Below, in pieces: positions 1,924-33,020 of a DNA stretch of 41,677 nucleotides. Where the stretch lies: positions 1 through 41,677 of IMG/VR virus record IMGVR_UViG_3300043773_000457; one strand, written 5' to 3'. The notes beneath the pieces are model-generated. The model did no database searches, was not told the origin of the DNA, and saw only the letters and a program-made list of their open reading frames with translations. Both the position numbers and the translations under genes were made by a program. Source of the DNA: a virus. How positions within the stretch are numbered: position 1 is the first letter of the stretch; every line of letters begins with the position of its first letter.

Positions 1924-3162
1924 TTATCTATTAATTGTGGAAATACAAGGTTCCCCACGCTCAAAAATAGTATCAACGACCGCTTGAACTTTTTTAGCAG
2001 TAGTAATACCAGCGTTGGTATAGACTGGAATGACACAAAGAGCAAATGACTTTGTGTATTGTTGTAGTGCTCCAGGACGAATATAACCTTTATGCAGATT
2101 TTTTACATCATCGTGGTGAAGTCTTACAATTCTTCCAACACTCTGGGCAATTCCAATATAATCCATTGGACGCATAAAGATTACTGCCTCCAAACCAGAA
2201 ACGGAAATACCCTCACAAATAATAGAGTGATGAATGACAATAAACTTCTTGGAATTGTCTTTTCCCCAAGCATTTAGCGTGTCAAAAAAGACTTCACGAT
2301 TGACTTTCTTACCATCAATGATCGCACCAGTTTTACTGGTAATTACCATCCAAGAATAACCACGATTATTCAGTTCATTGCAAAAGTCGGTTTCGGCAAT
2401 CAAACCCATAATTTGTTTTGTAGTTTTAGCACAAATCAAGACTTTACCGACCTGATAATCGTCAATTGTCTCAATCAAATTGTCTGCGTCACGGTCAAAA
2501 ATAACTTGACGACCTTTAACCATAGGCAATTGCTTGACTTGAACTTTAGGCGGCACAATATATCCTCCACGAACCATTTCTGGACCAGATACATTTACAA
2601 TAATAGAACCATAAACATCACCCCAATTCATACCAGGTTTATCTGGATTATTAGAATACTTGGGTGTTGCGGTATATGAATAAAACCTTTTTGCATTTTT
2701 TGAGAAATGCTCGACAGCAGGAAAAAAGTTCTTTTGAATAGAATTATGTGCTTCATCCAAATGAATAGTATCTACTTTTACATCAGCATCTACCAGACGC
2801 TGAAGAGAGTGATAAGTTGTAAAAATAAGTTTATGAAAAAACTTATTACTCTCTACCCACTGATGAATTGTAGAAGGACTTGTAGAAGATTGCCAATGTG
2901 TCTCTCCACTATGGCAGTGAAAAACTTTTGCATTTGTGATATACTCCAGATATTCGTGAGACAACTGCTCTGCCAAAAGAATGCGCGGAGAGACCACTAC
3001 AACGGTCTGTGGGACCTCCAATTCAAATTGCCTTACAGTATCAGCAATACCAACCAAAGTCTTTCCAGCGCCCGTCACAGCGCATACAATGCCCCTATTG
3101 CAAGTATCAAGGGCATCCAGAGCAGTCTGTTGGTGGGGACGGAGTTGAATCACTGACCTCAT
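1924..3162 (-). CDS. SF2 DEAH-type DNA helicase (UvsW-like class)
   Basis: A 412-residue superfamily 2 helicase. Motif I is TGAGKT at residues 30-35, motif II is DEAH at 136-139, motif III is TAT near 163-165, and motif VI is in QSVGRIVRLH in the C-terminal RecA-like domain. The N-terminal LRPHQQTALDAL is the Q-like or RecG/UvsW-type entry motif. It is likely to act in recombination or replication restart on branched DNA, like T4 UvsW, but it is shorter than UvsW (about 500 residues) and is not assigned that name. It has its own early-type promoter (extended -10 at 3176-3184), unlike the late structural genes upstream. The ATG at 3162 is used; the first residues are MRSVIQL. Confidence 0.85.
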   Translation of the reverse strand: MRSVIQLRPHQQTALDALDTCNRGIVCAVTGAGKTLVGIADTVRQFELEVPQTVVVVSPRILLAEQLSHEYLEYITNAKVFHCHSGETHWQSSTSPSTIHQWVESNKFFHKLIFTTYHSLQRLVDADVKVDTIHLDEAHNSIQKNFFPAVEHFSKNAKRFYSYTATPKYSNNPDKPGMNWGDVYGSIIVNVSGPEMVRGGYIVPPKVQVKQLPMVKGRQVIFDRDADNLIETIDDYQVGKVLICAKTTKQIMGLIAETDFCNELNNRGYSWMVITSKTGAIIDGKKVNREVFFDTLNAWGKDNSKKFIVIHHSIICEGISVSGLEAVIFMRPMDYIGIAQSVGRIVRLHHDDVKNLHKGYIRPGALQQYTKSFALCVIPVYTNAGITTAKKVQAVVDTIFERGEPCISTINR

Positions 3163-3175
3163 TGCGTATAGGACT

Positions 3176-3184
3176 ATTATAGCA
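3176..3184 (-). promoter_or_regulatory. Early promoter, extended -10 (TGCTATAAT)
   Basis: The minus strand reads TGCTATAAT, an extended -10 of the host sigma70 type, 14 nt upstream of the helicase ATG. No -35 consensus lies 17 bp upstream. It comes directly after the terminator of the preceding operon, a sensible position for a new transcription unit. Confidence 0.6.
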
Positions 3185-3218
3185 GAAAACCGCCCCTGGT
3201 GCGACTCAGTGGACGGTT
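3183..3218 (-). terminator. Probable rho-independent terminator after the fiber operon
   Basis: On the minus strand an 8-bp stem (AACCGTCC with GGGCGGTT, one G-U pair) is formed by 3211-3218 and 3188-3195, followed by TTTT. It lies downstream of the zinc-ribbon gene, the last gene of the fiber operon. A second 6-bp hairpin (GGTTCT/AGAACC) lies at 3215-3237. The T-tract is short, so strength is uncertain. Confidence 0.5.
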
Positions 3219-3272
3219 CTTAAAGTGTCCTAGAACCTTGTGTTCAACCTTAACAAAGATATTCTAGCAGTA

Positions 3273-3590
3273 TTATTGGGTATTAGTCAAGTCCTTTAAT
3301 AAATTATCAAACTTTCCATCCATCCAAGCATCATTAGATTCCTCCCACTTCTTCAATGGACAAGAATCTAAAGCAAATGTAGTCTTATATTCCAACATAC
3401 ACCCACATTCCTTACATCTAATCTGTTCAGAATCATAACGGTCACATTCCCTACAAATCTGCATTCTATTTTCTTTTACTTCTTCTGATACAATAAGTGC
3501 TTCACTTCTGAGAGCCTTTTTTACAATTTCAAAAGCAAATGAAGCAAGGTTTTTACCTTGCTCCGGTAACGAAGGATATTCCAAAGTCAT
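3273..3590 (-). CDS. Zinc-ribbon phage protein, 105 aa
   Basis: The centre holds a four-cysteine zinc-ribbon pattern, CRECDRYDSEQIRCKECGC (about residues 47-65), followed by a fifth cysteine in SCPLKKW. The C-terminus is acidic and polar. Small zinc-ribbon proteins of this type recur in phages beside tail or structural genes, with no established function. The ATG at 3590 has AGAGGA upstream, and a late motif AATAAATA lies at 3616-3623. It is the last gene of the fiber operon before the terminator. Zinc binding is inferred from the cysteines. Confidence 0.7.
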   Translation of the reverse strand: MTLEYPSLPEQGKNLASFAFEIVKKALRSEALIVSEEVKENRMQICRECDRYDSEQIRCKECGCMLEYKTTFALDSCPLKKWEESNDAWMDGKFDNLLKDLTNTQ

Positions 3591-13292: not shown

Positions 13293-13365
13293 TACCCGTG
13301 AGTGGATTCGAACCACCGCTTGGAACATTTTAAGTGTTCTGCCTCTTCCGCTGGGCTACACGGGC
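13293..13365 (-). tRNA. tRNA-Leu (anticodon UAA)
   Basis: A complete cloverleaf can be folded: acceptor GCCCGTG with CACGGGT, anticodon stem GAACA/TGTTC around loop CTTAAAA, T-arm GGTGG TTCGAAT CCACT, discriminator A. CCA is not encoded. The anticodon UAA reads UUA. The variable loop is only about 5 nt (CAAGC), whereas bacterial leucine tRNAs normally carry a long variable arm. Identity is by anticodon only. The 5' end directly abuts the CCA of tRNA-Met. Confidence 0.85.
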
Positions 13366-13442
13366 TGGTGGTCGCAAAGAGGATCGAACTCTTCTACGGC
13401 GCTTTATGAGAACGCTGCCTTCAACCAGATGGCTATACGACC
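13366..13442 (-). tRNA. tRNA-Met (anticodon CAU), CCA encoded
   Basis: The cloverleaf has acceptor GGTCGTA with TGCGACC, anticodon stem GCGTT/AGCGC around loop CTCATAA, T-arm AAGAG TTCGATC CTCTT, discriminator A and an encoded CCA at 13366-13368. The acceptor's first pair is matched and the anticodon stem lacks the GGG/CCC of initiator tRNA, so it is not fMet. A CAU anticodon could also belong to lysidine-modified tRNA-Ile2. Since a separate tRNA-Ile(UAU) lies next door, elongator Met is the simpler reading. Confidence 0.85.
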
Positions 13443-13445
13443 TAG

Positions 13446-13469
13446 ATTCGCTATTCGCAAATAGCGAAT
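13446..13469 (-). repeat. Perfect 10-bp hairpin between tRNA-Ile and tRNA-Met
   Basis: ATTCGCTATT at 13446-13455 and its exact complement at 13460-13469 enclose a 4-nt loop, read TGCG on the minus strand (a UNCG-type tetraloop). It overlaps the discriminator base of tRNA-Ile. There is no T-tract, so it is more likely an RNA-processing element than a terminator. Confidence 0.7.
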
Positions 13470-13541
13470 GGGAACAGCGGGGAATGATCCCGCACTAAGC
13501 ACTTATAAGGTGCCCGCTCTAACCAATTAAGCTATGCTCCC
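13469..13541 (-). tRNA. tRNA-Ile (anticodon UAU)
   Basis: Acceptor GGGAGCA pairs with TGTTCCC (one G-T pair), anticodon stem GGCAC/GTGCT surrounds loop CTTATAA, and the T-arm is GCGGG/CCCGC. The anticodon UAU reads AUA. The T-loop is ATCATTC instead of the usual TTCRANY, which is unusual. CCA is not encoded. The 5' end lies 7 nt downstream of the antitoxin-like gene, so both are probably on one transcript. Confidence 0.8.
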
Positions 13542-26656: not shown

Positions 26657-28000
26657 TTATCCTTTCCTTTCCTCTTTATTGATTCCAAAGGTATCTCTTA
26701 CAAGTTTCATTGAGGTATATGAACTTTGTGCATCAAAATGATGGCATAACTCCTTAATCATATATAGACCACTTGTTTCGGTGTCATATTCTTTCGCGTC
26801 AGATTGAGAAATTTTTGGAAACTTACATTCAATAACATCACCTGCTCTTAAATTAGTATTCGAAGGGACTATGACACTCAGAGTTTGCGTAAAAAGAATA
26901 TTATATCTCATCAATGATTGTGATTGATATAATTTCGGATCAGAGTTTAGTTCTCTTGAAGCATTCTTTTCCATCGTTCCAATATCAAGAACTGCAGTAA
27001 TAATTCTTGTAGGAACATCTCCTAAAGTTAAATCTGAACCTTCAGATACTTTTGGTAATTTAAGGTCACTTCCAAGATTTTTTGCCTTTCCAGAATAATC
27101 TTTAAGTTTAAATAACCCTTCCTCATACTTTGAAAATGAGAAGTTTAAAGGATTAAAGAACATACGATGACTTGCATATGTTCCCAGTTTAAGTTTCTCG
27201 ATTAAGTTTTGATTCTTATCAGCGATGTAGTTTAAAATTTTAAAATCATTATTGACTTTTTTGTCCTCATTATCATAACTGGTGGTTGTTTGACTATAGA
27301 TATATGTTGCCTTTGCCTTTTGTAAAATCAAATTATCAATTGATCTAAATTGAAATCCATCTTTCGTTTGATAAAAGACAAATCCAGCAGTTCCATCTCC
27401 AGAAGTTACTGGAACTCCTTTGGATGCTAACCAAACCAAAACAGTAAATGGTTTTCTCATATTACCAATAAAACCATACTTATTTGAAGTTTGGTCTATC
27501 GTTCCAATTTTATTTACTTTTAAATTTTCCTTTAGGATTTTAGTAACAGATTGATCAATTGAAAGTCCAGTAGGAAATTTTCCCATCACCCTGGTCGTTT
27601 CGTTTGTGATTGCTTCTCTTGAAACAAGATTTAATGTAAAACTTTCTTTGTTTGTTTCAGAGATTACATCAGTGATACTTGAAACATAAAGATAATCATT
27701 TGGATTTTTGGAGAAATCAAGTCCAGGATTTGTTGTAGAGTTTCCTGCAATTTTCATAGAAATTCTTTCACCACCCCTTAAAGGTAATCCATTATAAATT
27801 GATTGTTTTTCTCCATCAATATTATTTGCAGAAGGAATTGTATTTCCTGTATTAACTACTCTTATCTTCGCTGTAATTGTGGGGGAAAAAATATCTTCAT
27901 AATAATCAATAGCGATTGTGCCAGTAGAAATATCAACCGTCCTTTTTTGGTCGTTTGACTGTATAATTAACTCTTCATATATCGACTTTACTAGTGACAT
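26657..28000 (-). CDS. gp27: Baseplate hub protein gp27-like, 447 aa
   Basis: The protein has the beta-rich layout of T4-like hub ring proteins: an N-terminal domain with TGTIAIDYYEDIFSPTITAK, a middle domain (NKYGFIGNMRKPFTVLVWLASK) and a C-terminal domain ending LRAGDVIECKFPKI...GLYMIKELCHHFD. These are features of gp27/gpD-type hubs that join the tail tube to the spike. The gene lies between the tail lysin and gp5, as expected. Its ATG at 28000 overlaps the previous stop (TAATG). Length is somewhat greater than T4 gp27 (391 residues). The name rests on context and pattern, not alignment. Confidence 0.7.
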   Translation of the reverse strand: MSLVKSIYEELIIQSNDQKRTVDISTGTIAIDYYEDIFSPTITAKIRVVNTGNTIPSANNIDGEKQSIYNGLPLRGGERISMKIAGNSTTNPGLDFSKNPNDYLYVSSITDVISETNKESFTLNLVSREAITNETTRVMGKFPTGLSIDQSVTKILKENLKVNKIGTIDQTSNKYGFIGNMRKPFTVLVWLASKGVPVTSGDGTAGFVFYQTKDGFQFRSIDNLILQKAKATYIYSQTTTSYDNEDKKVNNDFKILNYIADKNQNLIEKLKLGTYASHRMFFNPLNFSFSKYEEGLFKLKDYSGKAKNLGSDLKLPKVSEGSDLTLGDVPTRIITAVLDIGTMEKNASRELNSDPKLYQSQSLMRYNILFTQTLSVIVPSNTNLRAGDVIECKFPKISQSDAKEYDTETSGLYMIKELCHHFDAQSSYTSMKLVRDTFGINKEERKG

Positions 28001-29766
28001 TATAGGTAAGATAAATCTATTAGAAGTTTTTTCTGGATAAACTTATTTAACATATTAAATTCATTGATATCTGATTTAATATTTGAATAATACCCGCCTG
28101 AAGGTGCTGGAGGAGCAACTGGTTTATTATCATCAATTAGATAAATCTGAGGTCCTTTTCTTTCTCTTTTTAAATTTTGTGATGCTACTCTACGCTGTGT
28201 TGCAGATATTTTTGCTCCAAAAGGTGCTTTTGGGTCAAACCCATATTCAATTGGATCGATAACATTATTTCTTGTATAACCAACTTCACCGATACGGGGA
28301 GAAACTTCCCAGTGAAGATGAGGTCCAGTGCTCCGCCCAGTAGATCCAACATATCCAAGCACAGTCCCTGCCGAAACAGTTTGTCCCTTTTTGAATTTGG
28401 GCATTTCACGAAGGTGTCCATAAAAATGCTCTATACCATTTGTATCAACAAAAGTTATATAATAACCGTATCCGCCTTCATAACCAACACTAGTAATTAC
28501 TGCATCAGTAAATGCATATACCGGTGTTCCAGAGGCAATTGGAATATCTCTACCAGCGTGAACTCTTCCCCTACTTCTAGAGTATCCTGCTCTTTCCCCC
28601 AATCTAAATCCAAGTTTTGAAAGGTCAAGTTTAGATTGTGGTGCTGGAGTAGGTGGTGTTTTTGCTACTGGTGCTCTTAATTCTCCTAATGGAGCATTCT
28701 TTGCCTGATACATTATTGAAATTTCTTTCTGAGAATACTTGGAATATTTCGACCAAGCACCAGGTCCTTGAGTTTTTAACAATCCAATTGCAAGCAAATC
28801 TTGATTATTCTGATCAAACCTATCACTATCTTTTAAACCAGCGGATCTTTGTGCTGTTGGAAGAGAACCTGGAACAATTTGATATCTTCCTGCAGCCCAT
28901 AAAGTTTTTTTATTATTTTGATAATCTTTAACTTCACCAATAGTCATATCAGTAAGATTTTTCCCAAGCCATTTTTTAGAACCACCAGGTCTATCGCCTG
29001 CTGTACCATTATTCATAGCATTATAATCACCACCACTTTCCGGTCCTGCTATAATATCAAGTGCTTGCTTATGAATTGGATTTAGTTGTCCAGACTCGCC
29101 TGGAACTCTAGTTTCTGGATATGCACCTTCGTCTTGAGAAGGAGTTCCTAAAGGAGTAGTAAGATATGGTGCTGTTATAAGTTTAAATCCTTCTTCGATT
29201 TGAGAACCCATATCTCCAAGAGTTAATGCTAAATCACCAAATGCCGTCTCAAGACGATTTGAAGAATCTGTAAAGTCTAAACTAGTTACATTCTTCCAAA
29301 CAGCATCCAAAACAGTTCCAAATCCAGTAAATAATTTTATAGTATTTGATAAAAATCCAGAGATAATTTGTCCAGTTTTAGTAAGTCTTGATATAAATTC
29401 TCTACCTAACTGTATCCAGGTTGGTAAATTTGAAAGTATCCATCCTGCTCCAAGATACCCAACAAATCCCAAAATTCTTTGAAGGAATGATCCACCAACC
29501 GATTGAATCATTCTAAATGGACCACCAGGTCTAACCGATAAGTTAGATGCTTCTAACTGACTTTCTTGGTCTGCTCTTCTCTCACTCTCAACTCTTCTAT
29601 ATCTTAAAATATTTTTAGTTGCAAAAGACTCTCTTTTTACTTTTGTCCTATTAATAAGAATATTGGATATATTTTTTACCGATTGATTAGCACCAGAAAG
29701 TTCTTTTCTGGTTAAGAAAACTGAAGATGAAACTCTTTCTAGGTTTAGTGGCGATTTTACTACCAT
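28000..29766 (-). CDS. Two-domain tail lysin (lysozyme-like plus M23 peptidase), 588 aa
   Basis: Residues 1-200 are basic and helical with hydrophobic segments (FLQRILGFVGYLGAGWIL), like a tape-measure end. Residues 230-345 form a lysozyme/transglycosylase-like domain (AGPESGGDYNAMNNG with candidate Glu243; AGRYQIVPGS; LKDSDRFDQNNQDLLAIGLL), comparable to lambda-type endolysin. Residues 385-510 are an M23 metallopeptidase: HAGRD (His403, Asp407), YGHL (His451) and PHLHW (His483, His485) supply the zinc and catalytic ligands. Together they can cut both sugar and peptide bonds of peptidoglycan during DNA injection. The gene lies between the tape-measure-like and gp27-like genes, so the protein probably sits inside or at the tail tip. 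Confidence 0.85.
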   Translation of the reverse strand: MVVKSPLNLERVSSSVFLTRKELSGANQSVKNISNILINRTKVKRESFATKNILRYRRVESERRADQESQLEASNLSVRPGGPFRMIQSVGGSFLQRILGFVGYLGAGWILSNLPTWIQLGREFISRLTKTGQIISGFLSNTIKLFTGFGTVLDAVWKNVTSLDFTDSSNRLETAFGDLALTLGDMGSQIEEGFKLITAPYLTTPLGTPSQDEGAYPETRVPGESGQLNPIHKQALDIIAGPESGGDYNAMNNGTAGDRPGGSKKWLGKNLTDMTIGEVKDYQNNKKTLWAAGRYQIVPGSLPTAQRSAGLKDSDRFDQNNQDLLAIGLLKTQGPGAWSKYSKYSQKEISIMYQAKNAPLGELRAPVAKTPPTPAPQSKLDLSKLGFRLGERAGYSRSRGRVHAGRDIPIASGTPVYAFTDAVITSVGYEGGYGYYITFVDTNGIEHFYGHLREMPKFKKGQTVSAGTVLGYVGSTGRSTGPHLHWEVSPRIGEVGYTRNNVIDPIEYGFDPKAPFGAKISATQRRVASQNLKRERKGPQIYLIDDNKPVAPPAPSGGYYSNIKSDINEFNMLNKFIQKKLLIDLSYL

Positions 29767-29767
29767 C

Positions 29768-31291
29768 TTATGTTACCACATTATAGCACATTTGAGAATA
29801 TAATGTATAAAAATTATCCGAATTTGCTGATGGGATTAAAGGAATATCAGTAAGAGGTCCAGATGTAGCAGTTCCTCTTCCAGATTGATTACCAGAACTT
29901 GTCGATGCTACCACAACTGTTGGTTGTGGTTCTGGTAATGTTCCAATATTGAAAGATTGTCTTTGTGAAGTTTGAACTTGTGCTGGAGAAGATGCTGTGC
30001 TAGGTGTGGGTGGATTACTTGTCGATTGGTTACCCAAATCAGAAAATGGTTTTAATGAATCTTGAAGATTCATATCAAATATTGGTGGTGCCGAAGGTTC
30101 TGCAACTTTTGGTAGTTTTGGACTTAGTGCAGATGTTTGTGGTTTCACCTCGGGCATTTTTACTTTACCTTCCATTCCAGACAAACCATATGCAGCCCTT
30201 CCTGCGATAGCTGCCCACCCAAGTGGTCCGGGAAGAGCTCCAGCAGCACTTAGTCCAGCCGCAAAATAATCACCTTTTTTATAATCCAGATATGATGCCG
30301 TTGCAGCAAGAGGAATATTTATGAAAGGCATTACCTTACCGACACTTTTAAATATCCCCCTCCCAAAACCACCAAGACCTTTTAATGACTGCGTAAAGAA
30401 ATTAGCACCTCTTTCAGATAAGACTTTTCCACCAGTTCCAGTAATCGGAACTTTTGTTGATGGAACTGCAGAAGGAGGGGAAACATTTCTTCTTCCTGCT
30501 ATCTTTGCTGCTAATACTGCACCACCAGCAGCAGCAAGTTTAAATGGAGCCTTAATTAAAGAAAATGTTAATTTAGAAATTCTTGCAGTAATTCCAGTAA
30601 CCGTTCTTAGAATTAGTCCAAATCCACCATTTATCAGGAACAAACCTCCAGCAGCAATTGCTAGATTTTTAATAACTGCATTTTTAATTTCCTCTAACTT
30701 CTTACCATTTCCTTCAGTAAATGCTTTTAAAGTTTCTATTCCTTGATTTGTTAACCACCCAACAAATAGAATTTTAATAGCATTAAACACTCCACCAAAA
30801 GTATCACTTATTTTCTCTTGTAACTTTGCAATTGGTACTGCTAATGCTGAAGTAATCTTTTGCTCTAAAAGATTTTCTCTACCCGACCTAATTTGTCTCT
30901 CAGCATTTCTTCTTTCAGTTTCTTGCTCAGTTCTAATCTGAGTTTGTTCTACTACACTATCCGCTTGTATAAGTCTGGAAATAGTGGCTAACCCAGCAGT
31001 TAATCCAGCGACTTCTATACGAAGATTATTAATTTGATTTTGAAGAGATGTAATGCTTTCTTGCGTGTTTACTTGCTGTTGGACAACAAGAGTACCATCA
31101 TCTTTTTTTACTTGCTGTTGAGCAACAAGAACACTCTCATCTCTTTTTACTAATGCTCCACCACGAGCAAATACTTTTGATGGAACAATCGTTCTTCTAA
31201 AAAGTGCCTTACGAACCTCTGAAGACAGCGGAGATCCTGTTACGGGGTCAACCCCGCTCTGGGCAATTGCTACAGGATCCATTTCAGCCAT
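29768..31291 (-). CDS. Tape-measure-like tail protein, about 507 aa
   Basis: The N-terminal third has a predicted coiled coil rich in Gln and Glu (QQQVNTQESITSLQNQINNL, later TEQETERRNAERQ). The middle has several hydrophobic Gly/Ala segments (FVGWLTNQG, AIAAGGLFLINGGFGLIL, AAGGAVLAAKIAG), and the end is Pro/Ser/Thr-rich. This is the usual architecture of tape-measure proteins, which set tail length and may form the DNA channel. It follows gp26 and the gp51-position ORF, the place of T4 gp28/gp29. The start is taken as the ATG at 31291 (MAEMDPVAIAQ); a GTG at 31297 would add two residues. Assignment is inferred, since no sequence match to gp29 is visible. Confidence 0.6.
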   Translation of the reverse strand: MAEMDPVAIAQSGVDPVTGSPLSSEVRKALFRRTIVPSKVFARGGALVKRDESVLVAQQQVKKDDGTLVVQQQVNTQESITSLQNQINNLRIEVAGLTAGLATISRLIQADSVVEQTQIRTEQETERRNAERQIRSGRENLLEQKITSALAVPIAKLQEKISDTFGGVFNAIKILFVGWLTNQGIETLKAFTEGNGKKLEEIKNAVIKNLAIAAGGLFLINGGFGLILRTVTGITARISKLTFSLIKAPFKLAAAGGAVLAAKIAGRRNVSPPSAVPSTKVPITGTGGKVLSERGANFFTQSLKGLGGFGRGIFKSVGKVMPFINIPLAATASYLDYKKGDYFAAGLSAAGALPGPLGWAAIAGRAAYGLSGMEGKVKMPEVKPQTSALSPKLPKVAEPSAPPIFDMNLQDSLKPFSDLGNQSTSNPPTPSTASSPAQVQTSQRQSFNIGTLPEPQPTVVVASTSSGNQSGRGTATSGPLTDIPLIPSANSDNFYTLYSQMCYNVVT

Positions 31292-31457
31292 TAGCACTAT
31301 TCTTCAGATTTTCTTCTTCAATGTATTGTTGGAGTAACCCAACATAGATTTCCCGTTCCCAGGGAATCATATTCTCTAACTCTGTCAAAGAGTATTTATG
31401 ATGCTGAACAAGAGCAAAATTAGTCTTATAGTATGACGCAAGATCTTCGTGCGCCAT
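31284..31457 (-). CDS. Small ORF in gp51 position, likely made as gp26 frameshift extension
   Basis: The 57-residue product is MAHEDLASYYKTNFALVQHH followed by KYSLTELENMIPWEREIYVG and an acidic helix. IPWEREIYV resembles the aromatic motif of the C-terminal part of tail assembly chaperones. No Shine-Dalgarno sequence precedes the ATG at 31457. Its frame is -1 relative to gp26 and is entered by a slip at T TTT TTC (31466-31472). It may therefore be translated as gp26-fusion, alone by re-initiation after the nearby gp26 stop, or both. By position it corresponds to T4 gp51, a baseplate hub assembly catalyst, but it is far shorter. Confidence 0.7.
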   Translation of the reverse strand: MAHEDLASYYKTNFALVQHHKYSLTELENMIPWEREIYVGLLQQYIEEENLKNSANG

Positions 31458-31459
31458 CG

Positions 31460-32179
31460 CTAGGCGAAAAAAGATGTTAATCCCTCCAGAATAACTTCAC
31501 TTTCAACTCCAGTATTTGGATTTTTAATTTTGAGTGTATGAGAAAGTTTGGGCATAGTCTCAAAGAATCTTTCGATATCTTTAAATTGCTTCGAACTCAG
31601 CTGCTCAAGAAATTCATTCATTTCCTTTTTCGTCACATCAGCTGCCGTCCAAGATTCTTCTTCACTATAAATTTGTTCAATACAAGAAGAAATCATATCA
31701 AAAGTATCATCAACACTTACATCCATTTCATTAGCAAAGTTATTTTTAATAAACTCTTGCATCGATGGATACTTCATTCTCATAGTTAGAGAATCATCCA
31801 ATTTAATATCACGAGAATGTTCTTTACTTACCTGAACTTGAATATCGTCCAAATTTATAGAAGCCGGGACTTGTGTTGTCCCATCATCTGGACAAGTAAT
31901 TAAAACATCCACATCTTCACCAACAGACTTTCCACGAATATTGAGGAAAAGATATTCGATATCAAAAGTTGCTAGTTGATCGATTTTAATTCCTTTAGTG
32001 AGAACACAATTACCAATTACTGTCTTAACTGCTTCAGCAATTTGCTTTGGATCTTCACTCTCCATAGCAATAATCAGAATTTTTTCTTCTTTAACTAAAA
32101 ATGGTCTGTATTTTATTTTCTTTTTTAATGAAGGAATTTCCAACTCATATGTCGGCGTTGCAATTGTAGGTAAAGGCAT
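31460..32179 (-). CDS. gp26: Baseplate hub assembly protein gp26, 239 aa
   Basis: The protein begins MPLPTIATPTYELEIPSLKK and has KYRPFLVKEEKILIIAMES and TCPDD segments typical of the T4 gp26 baseplate family (PF12322). gp26 is needed for hub assembly and behaves like a tail assembly chaperone for the tape measure. The C-terminus ends ...ILEGLTSFFA, and the codons TCT TTT TTC contain a canonical slippery heptamer just before the TAG, predicting a -1 frameshift into the next ORF. A late motif CTAAATAA lies at 32204-32211 and AGG upstream of the ATG. It sits between gp54 and the tape-measure gene. Confidence 0.8.
   Translation of the reverse strand: MPLPTIATPTYELEIPSLKKKIKYRPFLVKEEKILIIAMESEDPKQIAEAVKTVIGNCVLTKGIKIDQLATFDIEYLFLNIRGKSVGEDVDVLITCPDDGTTQVPASINLDDIQVQVSKEHSRDIKLDDSLTMRMKYPSMQEFIKNNFANEMDVSVDDTFDMISSCIEQIYSEEESWTAADVTKKEMNEFLEQLSSKQFKDIERFFETMPKLSHTLKIKNPNTGVESEVILEGLTSFFA
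31466..31472 (-). promoter_or_regulatory. Programmed -1 frameshift site candidate (T TTT TTC)
   Basis: On the minus strand six T followed by C lie in the X XXY YYZ phase of gp26 (TC[T TTT TTC] GCC TAG). A -1 slip continues as CGC CTA GCG ATG GCG CAC, which is the frame of the next ORF. The gp26 stop comes only one codon after the heptamer. A strong downstream stem is not obvious; only 4-bp stems such as CGCC/GGCG are seen. Confidence 0.7.
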
Positions 32180-32203: not shown

Positions 32204-32211
32204 TTATTTAG
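32204..32211 (-). promoter_or_regulatory. Late promoter motif (CTAAATAA)
   Basis: The minus strand reads CTAAATAA 25-32 nt upstream of gp26, over the stop codon of gp54. It has the CTAAATA form also seen at the gp4/gp54 divergent region. Confidence 0.5.
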
Positions 32212-33020
32212 TTGATTATCGGTTGCCCAGAACCATTAAAAAATCTTCTATTCACTTCAGCACTAGTTCTTGTATCAATACTTGAATCATAAAAAACAAC
32301 ACCACTTTGACCACGAACTGGTACTAAAGTTCTTTGAGTAGTTGTTGGTTCGGTTGGTTCCTTATTATTAGAATTTCCCAGATATTGATTAATACTCAAA
32401 GATTTACCAGCAATGTAGCGATCGTATTGAAATGTTGCAGACATTTTTAAGGTATCAGAAGCAACATAACTTACTGGAATTGAACTAATAGTTGATGGAA
32501 ATAGTCCAATAAAATTATATTCAATTTCTTGTTTGTAGTCTCTATCAAATTTAATAATTCTAGTTGCATTTGACTTATAGTATGCTGGATATTGCATCCT
32601 AGAAAAGTAACCTTGATTATTCTGACTGATTGAAGAATTTTCTCCATCTAATCCTTGTTGGTTGAAAGATCCACTTGCAATAAACTCCATCCAACTCTCA
32701 ATAAATTTTAGAGATTTATAATTTTTATCAATATAAAAATCTAAAGTAATTGTATCGTATAATCTTGTATGGGCAAATTTTTCCTGCACGCCCATAAAAT
32801 TTCCAGATATAGTGTTAGTTGCAAGATTTGATGTTGGCAAAATTGCAGAATAACATAACAATCCAGCATCACCTACAACAAATCTAGATGTAACTCCTCT
32901 CTTACGAAGATAATCTTTTAATTGATCTGGTAATCCACCAAACTGAACTTCATAGTGCGAAGATTGGGCAAGATTTGTTAATAGTGGTTTTATATCAGAT
33001 ATTCTGCGCTTAATAGCCAC
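32208..33020 (-). CDS. gp54: Baseplate-tail tube initiator gp54, 270 aa
   Basis: The fold pattern matches T4 gp54: GLLCYSAILPTSNLATNTIS followed by TRLYDTITLDFYIDKNYKS and IESWMEFI corresponds to the T4 segment GLMIYSVKMPENRL...LVISFRMD...MQDWV, and FIGLFPSTISSIPVSYVASD corresponds to its later strand. gp54 polymerises on the baseplate and starts the tail tube. The start codon is GTG (33018-33020) with AAGG about 10 nt upstream. It is transcribed away from gp4, starting from CTAAATAC at 33053-33060, and heads the hub operon that continues through gp26 to gp5. Confidence 0.8.
   Translation of the reverse strand: MAIKRRISDIKPLLTNLAQSSHYEVQFGGLPDQLKDYLRKRGVTSRFVVGDAGLLCYSAILPTSNLATNTISGNFMGVQEKFAHTRLYDTITLDFYIDKNYKSLKFIESWMEFIASGSFNQQGLDGENSSISQNNQGYFSRMQYPAYYKSNATRIIKFDRDYKQEIEYNFIGLFPSTISSIPVSYVASDTLKMSATFQYDRYIAGKSLSINQYLGNSNNKEPTEPTTTQRTLVPVRGQSGVVFYDSSIDTRTSAEVNRRFFNGSGQPIIN

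Follow-up and report, generated by a model that had tools for sequence, protein, structure and literature searches.

The gp26 locus

The window analysed here is the whole of one viral record, 41,677 nucleotides long (IMG/VR IMGVR_UViG_3300043773_000457). The genes and signals that concern us lie on its minus strand and are collected in Table 1. The product of gp26 matches the family PF12322 (T4_baseplate) with E=1.5e-75 and phrog_150 with 2.1e-81; its score of 254 bits, against a Pfam gathering cut-off of 24.5, places it in the family of T4 gp26 and gp51. At the end of gp26 the minus strand reads GGA TTA ACA TC[T TTT TTC] GCC TAG CG ATG GCG CAC, in which the bracketed heptamer sits in the phase of the gp26 frame, within the overlap of two open reading frames (ORFs), as expected of a -1 slippery site, and is followed by 6 nt that close with the gp26 stop codon.

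An earlier note on this DNA had proposed, for positions 31284-31490 (the site and the downstream ORF, gp26 being the upstream gene at 31460-32179), that a programmed -1 frameshift joins gp26 to the next ORF, and its reading of the letters holds. There is an X XXY YYZ site at the end of gp26 in the correct phase (31472-31466); the -1 frame reads CGC CTA GCG ATG GCG CAC and is open for 60 codons, up to a stop at 31284; the 57 codons counted in the note are the ATG-started part of that frame (31284-31457); no Shine-Dalgarno (SD) sequence lies 5-12 nt before this ATG; and the IPWEREIYV motif is present. An assembly error as the source of the junction can be ruled out, as independent metagenomes (L001, L002) contain identical junctions.

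Table 1. Features of the gp26 locus in the window and the corresponding extension in Aeromonas phage Aeh1.
Feature	Position	Strand	Basis
gp26, putative short tail assembly chaperone (TAC-N), 239 aa, 0-frame product	31460..32179	-	PF12322, phrog_150
Slippery heptamer T TTT TTC, in phase X XXY YYZ	31466..31472	-	kept in 111/115 distinct junctions
gp26 stop codon TAG, bypassed by a -1 shift	31460..31462	-	sequence
-1 frame extension, 60 codons + stop, 'gp51' C-terminal domain of putative long chaperone (TAC-NC)	31284..31466	-	phrog_634, phrog_150 C-end
SD-like GGAGGG, 9 nt upstream of heptamer, dnaX-like stimulator position	31482..31487	-	anti-SD pairing
RNA hairpin, begins 8 nt downstream of heptamer	31433..31457	-	covariation
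Tail tube protein gene, upstream of gp26	32208..33020	-	PF23849 8e-16; phrog_45 2.6e-38
Next gene, 509 aa, candidate tape measure	29768..31297	-	position; weak PHROG matches, function not described
Aeh1 unannotated -1 extension	L214:1001-1180		after GAT TTT TTC GAC TGA

Conservation of the heptamer and its phase

Junctions were collected from 80 IMG/VR relatives (77-100% identity) and from distant relatives (cyanophages, and phages of Pelagibacter, Pseudomonas, Rhizobium, Stenotrophomonas, Cronobacter, Aeromonas and Vibrio), giving 115 distinct junctions. TTTTTTC followed by one sense codon and a stop is found in all but one of the 80 IMG/VR relatives, the exception being a contig designated L027, and an in-phase TTTTTT(C/T/G) is found in 111 of the 115 distinct junctions. 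The four without it come from L027, Vibrio phage D532, Salmonella phage Marshall and the contig L091, whose frame is broken. All 20 lineages, separated at less than 60% protein identity, read NNT TTT TT[C/T/G]: the residue preceding Phe-Phe varies (Ser, Asp, Asn, Ala, Thr) and its codon ends in T every time. The joint probability of these synonymous choices over the 20 lineages is about 10^-9.2, a rough and indicative figure because the lineages are related. The heptamer and its phase are conserved beyond what the protein requires; loss of the heptamer in close relatives, which the earlier note had named as refuting the frameshift, is not what is observed.

GenBank records list gp26 and gp51 as separate coding sequences, as would be the case for two independent genes with a fortuitous heptamer between them. 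The conservation data already contradict a fortuitous heptamer, since it is kept over lineages below 60% identity with the synonymous codon choice fixed. In-phase TTTTTTN occurs twice in the 12,612 codons of 31 window genes, and about 0.0016 occurrences would be expected by chance in the last 10 codons of any one gene. We regard this reading as having a negligible probability.

The distance from the heptamer to the stop codon differs in one class of sequences (L121, L136, L151-L178), in which the 0-frame stop lies 21 nt further downstream: here the distance from the heptamer to the end of the stop codon is 27 nt, compared with 6 elsewhere, and the position of the heptamer relative to the extension is unchanged. 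Two lineages have a homologous C-terminal ORF (phrog_9633/634) downstream of gp26 and lack a canonical heptamer, namely L086:3304-3471, L186-L203 (Ackermannviridae) and L085:3217-3399 (Vibrio phage D532). The heptamer-less junctions have a conserved GAR ATT TTC ATY TAA, which continues as TAATG in the Limestone type and as TAATT in the Kutter type. In Ackermannviridae and Vibrio phage D532 the long form, if there is one, may be made by another route; a scan of viral contigs found no relatives of the D532 protein.

The -1 frame extension

The 57-aa ORF matches PHROG 634 ('baseplate hub assembly catalyst') with 3.6e-29, and a second match is to the C-terminal end of PHROG 150, of which gp26 corresponds to the N-terminal 232 columns. 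Within the close group, pN/pS of the -1 frame is 0.196, next to 0.212 for gp26, and the stretch gives 1.2 and 2.7 when read in its two other frames; these values indicate that the -1 frame codes for protein and is subject to purifying selection.

The beginning of the extension is informative in the distant relatives. In 40 of 48 distinct distant junctions (e.g., those of HTVC008M, Aeh1 and S-RIM2), ATG, GTG and TTG are all missing from the first seven codons of the extension, although positions 4-6 of it (L-S/A-H) are recognisably conserved. No weight was given to the conservation of Leu/Ile at residue 2, which the overlapping 0-frame stop codon dictates. As the first codons of the extension lack a start codon, gp51 is annotated from an internal Met (public annotation of HTVC008M and S-RIM2) or is left out altogether (DSL-LC03, S13 and Aeh1).

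The absence of start codons bears on the possibility that ribosomes terminate at TAG and re-initiate at the ATG 3 nt further on, giving a free 57-aa gp51 and no fusion. The TAGCGATG spacing in the window would allow this, 41 of 45 distinct members of the close group have an ATG 3 nt past the stop codon, from which a free gp51 could also be produced, and TAATG or TGATG overlaps occur in some distant phages. Against this, the 40 distant junctions lack a start codon at this place, and four close relatives have TTG instead. A ribosome-binding site belonging to the small ORF, which the earlier note had named as a sign against a fusion, is not found at the right spacing. Furthermore, the AUG of the close group is buried in a covarying hairpin, re-initiation does not require an in-phase T TTT TTN, and T4 gp51 and the product of L027 are fusions (both are described below). 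Re-initiation in place of a frameshift is highly unlikely in our estimation, but in the close group it may contribute.

Elements flanking the heptamer

The GGAGGG upstream of the heptamer pairs with the anti-SD sequence at -9.8 kcal/mol, a value matched by 1.8% of the in-phase windows of gp26, and across the 20 lineages the SD-like element gives a combined Fisher p=2.6e-8. Downstream, the hairpin is formed by the arms AUGGCGC (31457-31451) and GCGUCAU (31439-31433), the 5′ arm including the AUG of the supposed gp51 ORF. Across 48 distinct close relatives, pairing is kept in 98.8% of cells, and changes on both sides are seen in 23 cells, compared with 7.1 in shuffles (none of 500 shuffles reached 23). 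Distant lineages are uneven in this respect, with z from -5.8 to +1.2: pf16 (z -5.8) and S-H34 (z -3.4) have a strong hairpin, and some others have none. The hairpin is well supported in the close group of the window only, and it is this group that has stimulatory elements on both sides of the heptamer, the combination being uneven in distant lineages.

The same elements help to separate ribosomal from transcriptional slippage, in which RNA polymerase would add a base on the T run and normal ribosomes would then read the fusion. Every site has a run of T6 to T8, as polymerase slippage would require, although the runs are mostly of six only, which is short for efficient polymerase slippage. In addition, the run begins at the third codon position every time and the base after it fits tandem tRNA slippage, and the presence of the SD-like element and of the hairpin 8 nt past the heptamer agrees with a ribosomal signal. 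Transcriptional slippage is, in our view, a little less probable still than re-initiation.

Gp51 of T4 and natural fusions

In T4, gp26 and gp51 are both full-length PF12322 proteins. The match of T4 gp51 to phrog_150 extends over 13-280 of 282, i.e., over the gp26 part and the extension, and its C-terminal part matches PHROG 634. A profile of the frameshift extensions likewise finds T4-type gp51 at its C-terminal part (hhalign 95.5%; for T4, a hmmsearch domain of 1.8e-6). T4 has two PF12322 genes, compared with one in each of the 13 other records searched, and its short and long forms are encoded by two genes on opposite strands, without a slippery site. These similarities show T4 gp51 to be a paralogue of gp26, a long form already fused in frame, with T4 gp26 as the short form, so that T4 makes its version of the pair through gene duplication. 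The statement of the earlier note that gp26 and gp51 are separate proteins in T4 is true but incomplete, as T4 gp51 itself comprises a gp26-type domain and a small gp51 in one frame. Short and long forms with a common N-terminus can be read from the sequence in the window, as the gp26 and gp26-gp51 frames, with T4 gp51 and L027 as homologues in a single frame.

L027 is a 236-kb IMG/VR contig from a close relative of the window, in which positions 2501-3394 encode a natural in-frame gp26-gp51 fusion of 297 aa. Its junction, TCT TTT TGG TTA, has a 2-nt deletion compared with relatives, and a second PF12322 gene was not found in the record. Either the long form is the sole or main product in this phage, or the deletion is an assembly error.

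T4 gp51 is required, yet absent from the particle (PMC3004832). The gp51 of cyanophages and marine vibriophages was described as lacking the first 200 residues ('truncated'), and Aeh1 alone was described as lacking gp51 (Sullivan et al. 2010; PMC3037559). With T4 gp51 as an in-frame long form and cyanophage gp51 as the extension, the 'truncated' gp51 is explained. In Aeromonas phage Aeh1, GAT TTT TTC GAC TGA is followed by a -1 extension that has no start codon at its beginning and is unannotated, which explains the 'missing' gp51: this extension (Table 1) is the one reported missing.

Predicted fold and neighbouring genes

The natural fusion of L027 was modelled with AlphaFold2 (pLDDT 87, pTM 0.82) from an alignment that held rows for L027 and for T4-type gp51 and gp26 only. 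With VIA-align, the best match of this model in the PDB was the tail assembly chaperone of HK97 (2ob9; Z 8.0, 84 residues, rmsd 3.5), at the edge of the range that the aligner calls secure, followed by 3fgx (Z 7.8); both align with residues 1-95 of L027. The third match, 5ir0, had a Z of 5.0, and the remaining, unrelated ones were at or below 4.0. A Foldseek search of the model against the PDB gave no significant match (E 2.8), nor did a sequence search of the PDB with the family profile, in which no similarity to the chaperones of lambda or HK97 was detected. The predicted fold gives moderate support, from an independent side, to gp26 being a tail assembly chaperone, and to the link with the tail chaperone scheme drawn in the earlier note, a link which had itself already been published.

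The tail tube gene is directly upstream of gp26, and the next gene downstream is not recognisable as a tape measure by sequence. The 509-aa product of this gene was considered as a homologue of T4 gp29, and this was dropped, as hhalign found nothing between the two (E 0.37); it is a candidate tape measure by position only. Near it, positions 28000-29766 encode a 588-aa protein with an M23 peptidase domain. Elsewhere on the minus strand of the window, 13293-13541 contains three tRNA genes (Leu-TAA, Met-CAT and Ile-TAT).

Proposed mechanism and known systems

The conservation of the heptamer, the selection acting on the -1 frame and the absent start codons support the programmed -1 frameshift of the earlier note, and we consider it very probable that a single gene, made up of gp26 and the small downstream ORF, gives two tail assembly chaperones. 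Most ribosomes would terminate at TAG, giving the 239-aa short form. Some would pause on U UUU UUC, where 16S rRNA would pair with the upstream GGAGGG and the hairpin 8 nt further on would resist unwinding, and the Phe-tRNAs in the P- and A-sites would each slip by one base and pair again (UUU UUC to UUU UUU). After the slip, 60 more codons would be read, and the resulting long form, a fusion of about 298 residues, would have as its C-terminal helices what has been called gp51. Lambda gpG/gpGT and HK97 gp13/gp14 suggest by analogy that the short form may coat the tape measure and the long form may recruit tail proteins to it.

These pairs of lambda and HK97 proteins are tail assembly chaperones, reportedly described as such by Xu, Hendrix and Duda in 2004. 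As in the window, each consists of a short protein and a -1 frameshifted long form, encoded right after the tail tube gene, and the HK97 chaperone (2ob9) is the best match of the predicted N-terminal domain fold. The slippery heptamer of lambda is G GGA AAG, whereas that of the window is T TTT TTC, 6 nt from the end of the stop codon. The layout of the signal in the window is that of Escherichia coli dnaX, which has an SD-like element about 10 nt upstream, the slippery heptamer A AAA AAG, and a hairpin a few nt downstream; the heptamer differs, as do the gene and the purpose. Gp26 and gp51 of the T4-like phages belong to the same PF12322 family, T4 gp51 carrying the C-terminal domain of the window extension, but in T4 two genes make the short and long forms, whereas in the window one locus would do so by a -1 shift.

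A case from a contractile phage is the chaperone of phage Adele (Vandenendeviridae), whose -1 site (GTTTTT) is conserved and whose C-terminal portion was misannotated as a separate hypothetical gene (PMC12846349); the phage family and slippery motif are other than those of the window. Both the kind of system and its link with T4-like phages are already published, as far as citations of Vladimirov, Gautam and Davidson 2022 (Virology 566:9-15) convey: the PRFect paper cites this work for some T4-like phages having two chaperone genes, a short one and a separate, fused long one, in place of frameshifting (PMC10885494), and the Adele paper cites it for poly-T slippery sequences in the TAC-N genes of T4-like phages (PMC12846349). 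Our literature search did not find the survey of junctions, the three-part signal with a covarying hairpin or the Aeh1 case, any of which may still have been published.

Significance

On balance we lean, with some reserve, towards a wider reading, in which gp51, counted among the near-core genes of T4-like phages, would not be a separate gene in Kyanoviridae, Aeh1-like and KVP40-like phages and would be translated only as the C-terminal domain of a frameshifted gp26; the group of the window would have a three-part, dnaX-like signal, with a hairpin that also closes the false start; and T4 would have exchanged recoding for duplication and fusion. Already on the narrower and very probable reading of a single frameshifted gene, what has been annotated as a pair of genes becomes one recoded gene across hundreds of sequenced cyanophages, and the three-part signal offers a compact frameshift cassette in a cyanobacterial phage. 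One pair of chaperones is then made by two routes within one family: by frameshifting in most lineages, and by duplication and fusion in T4.
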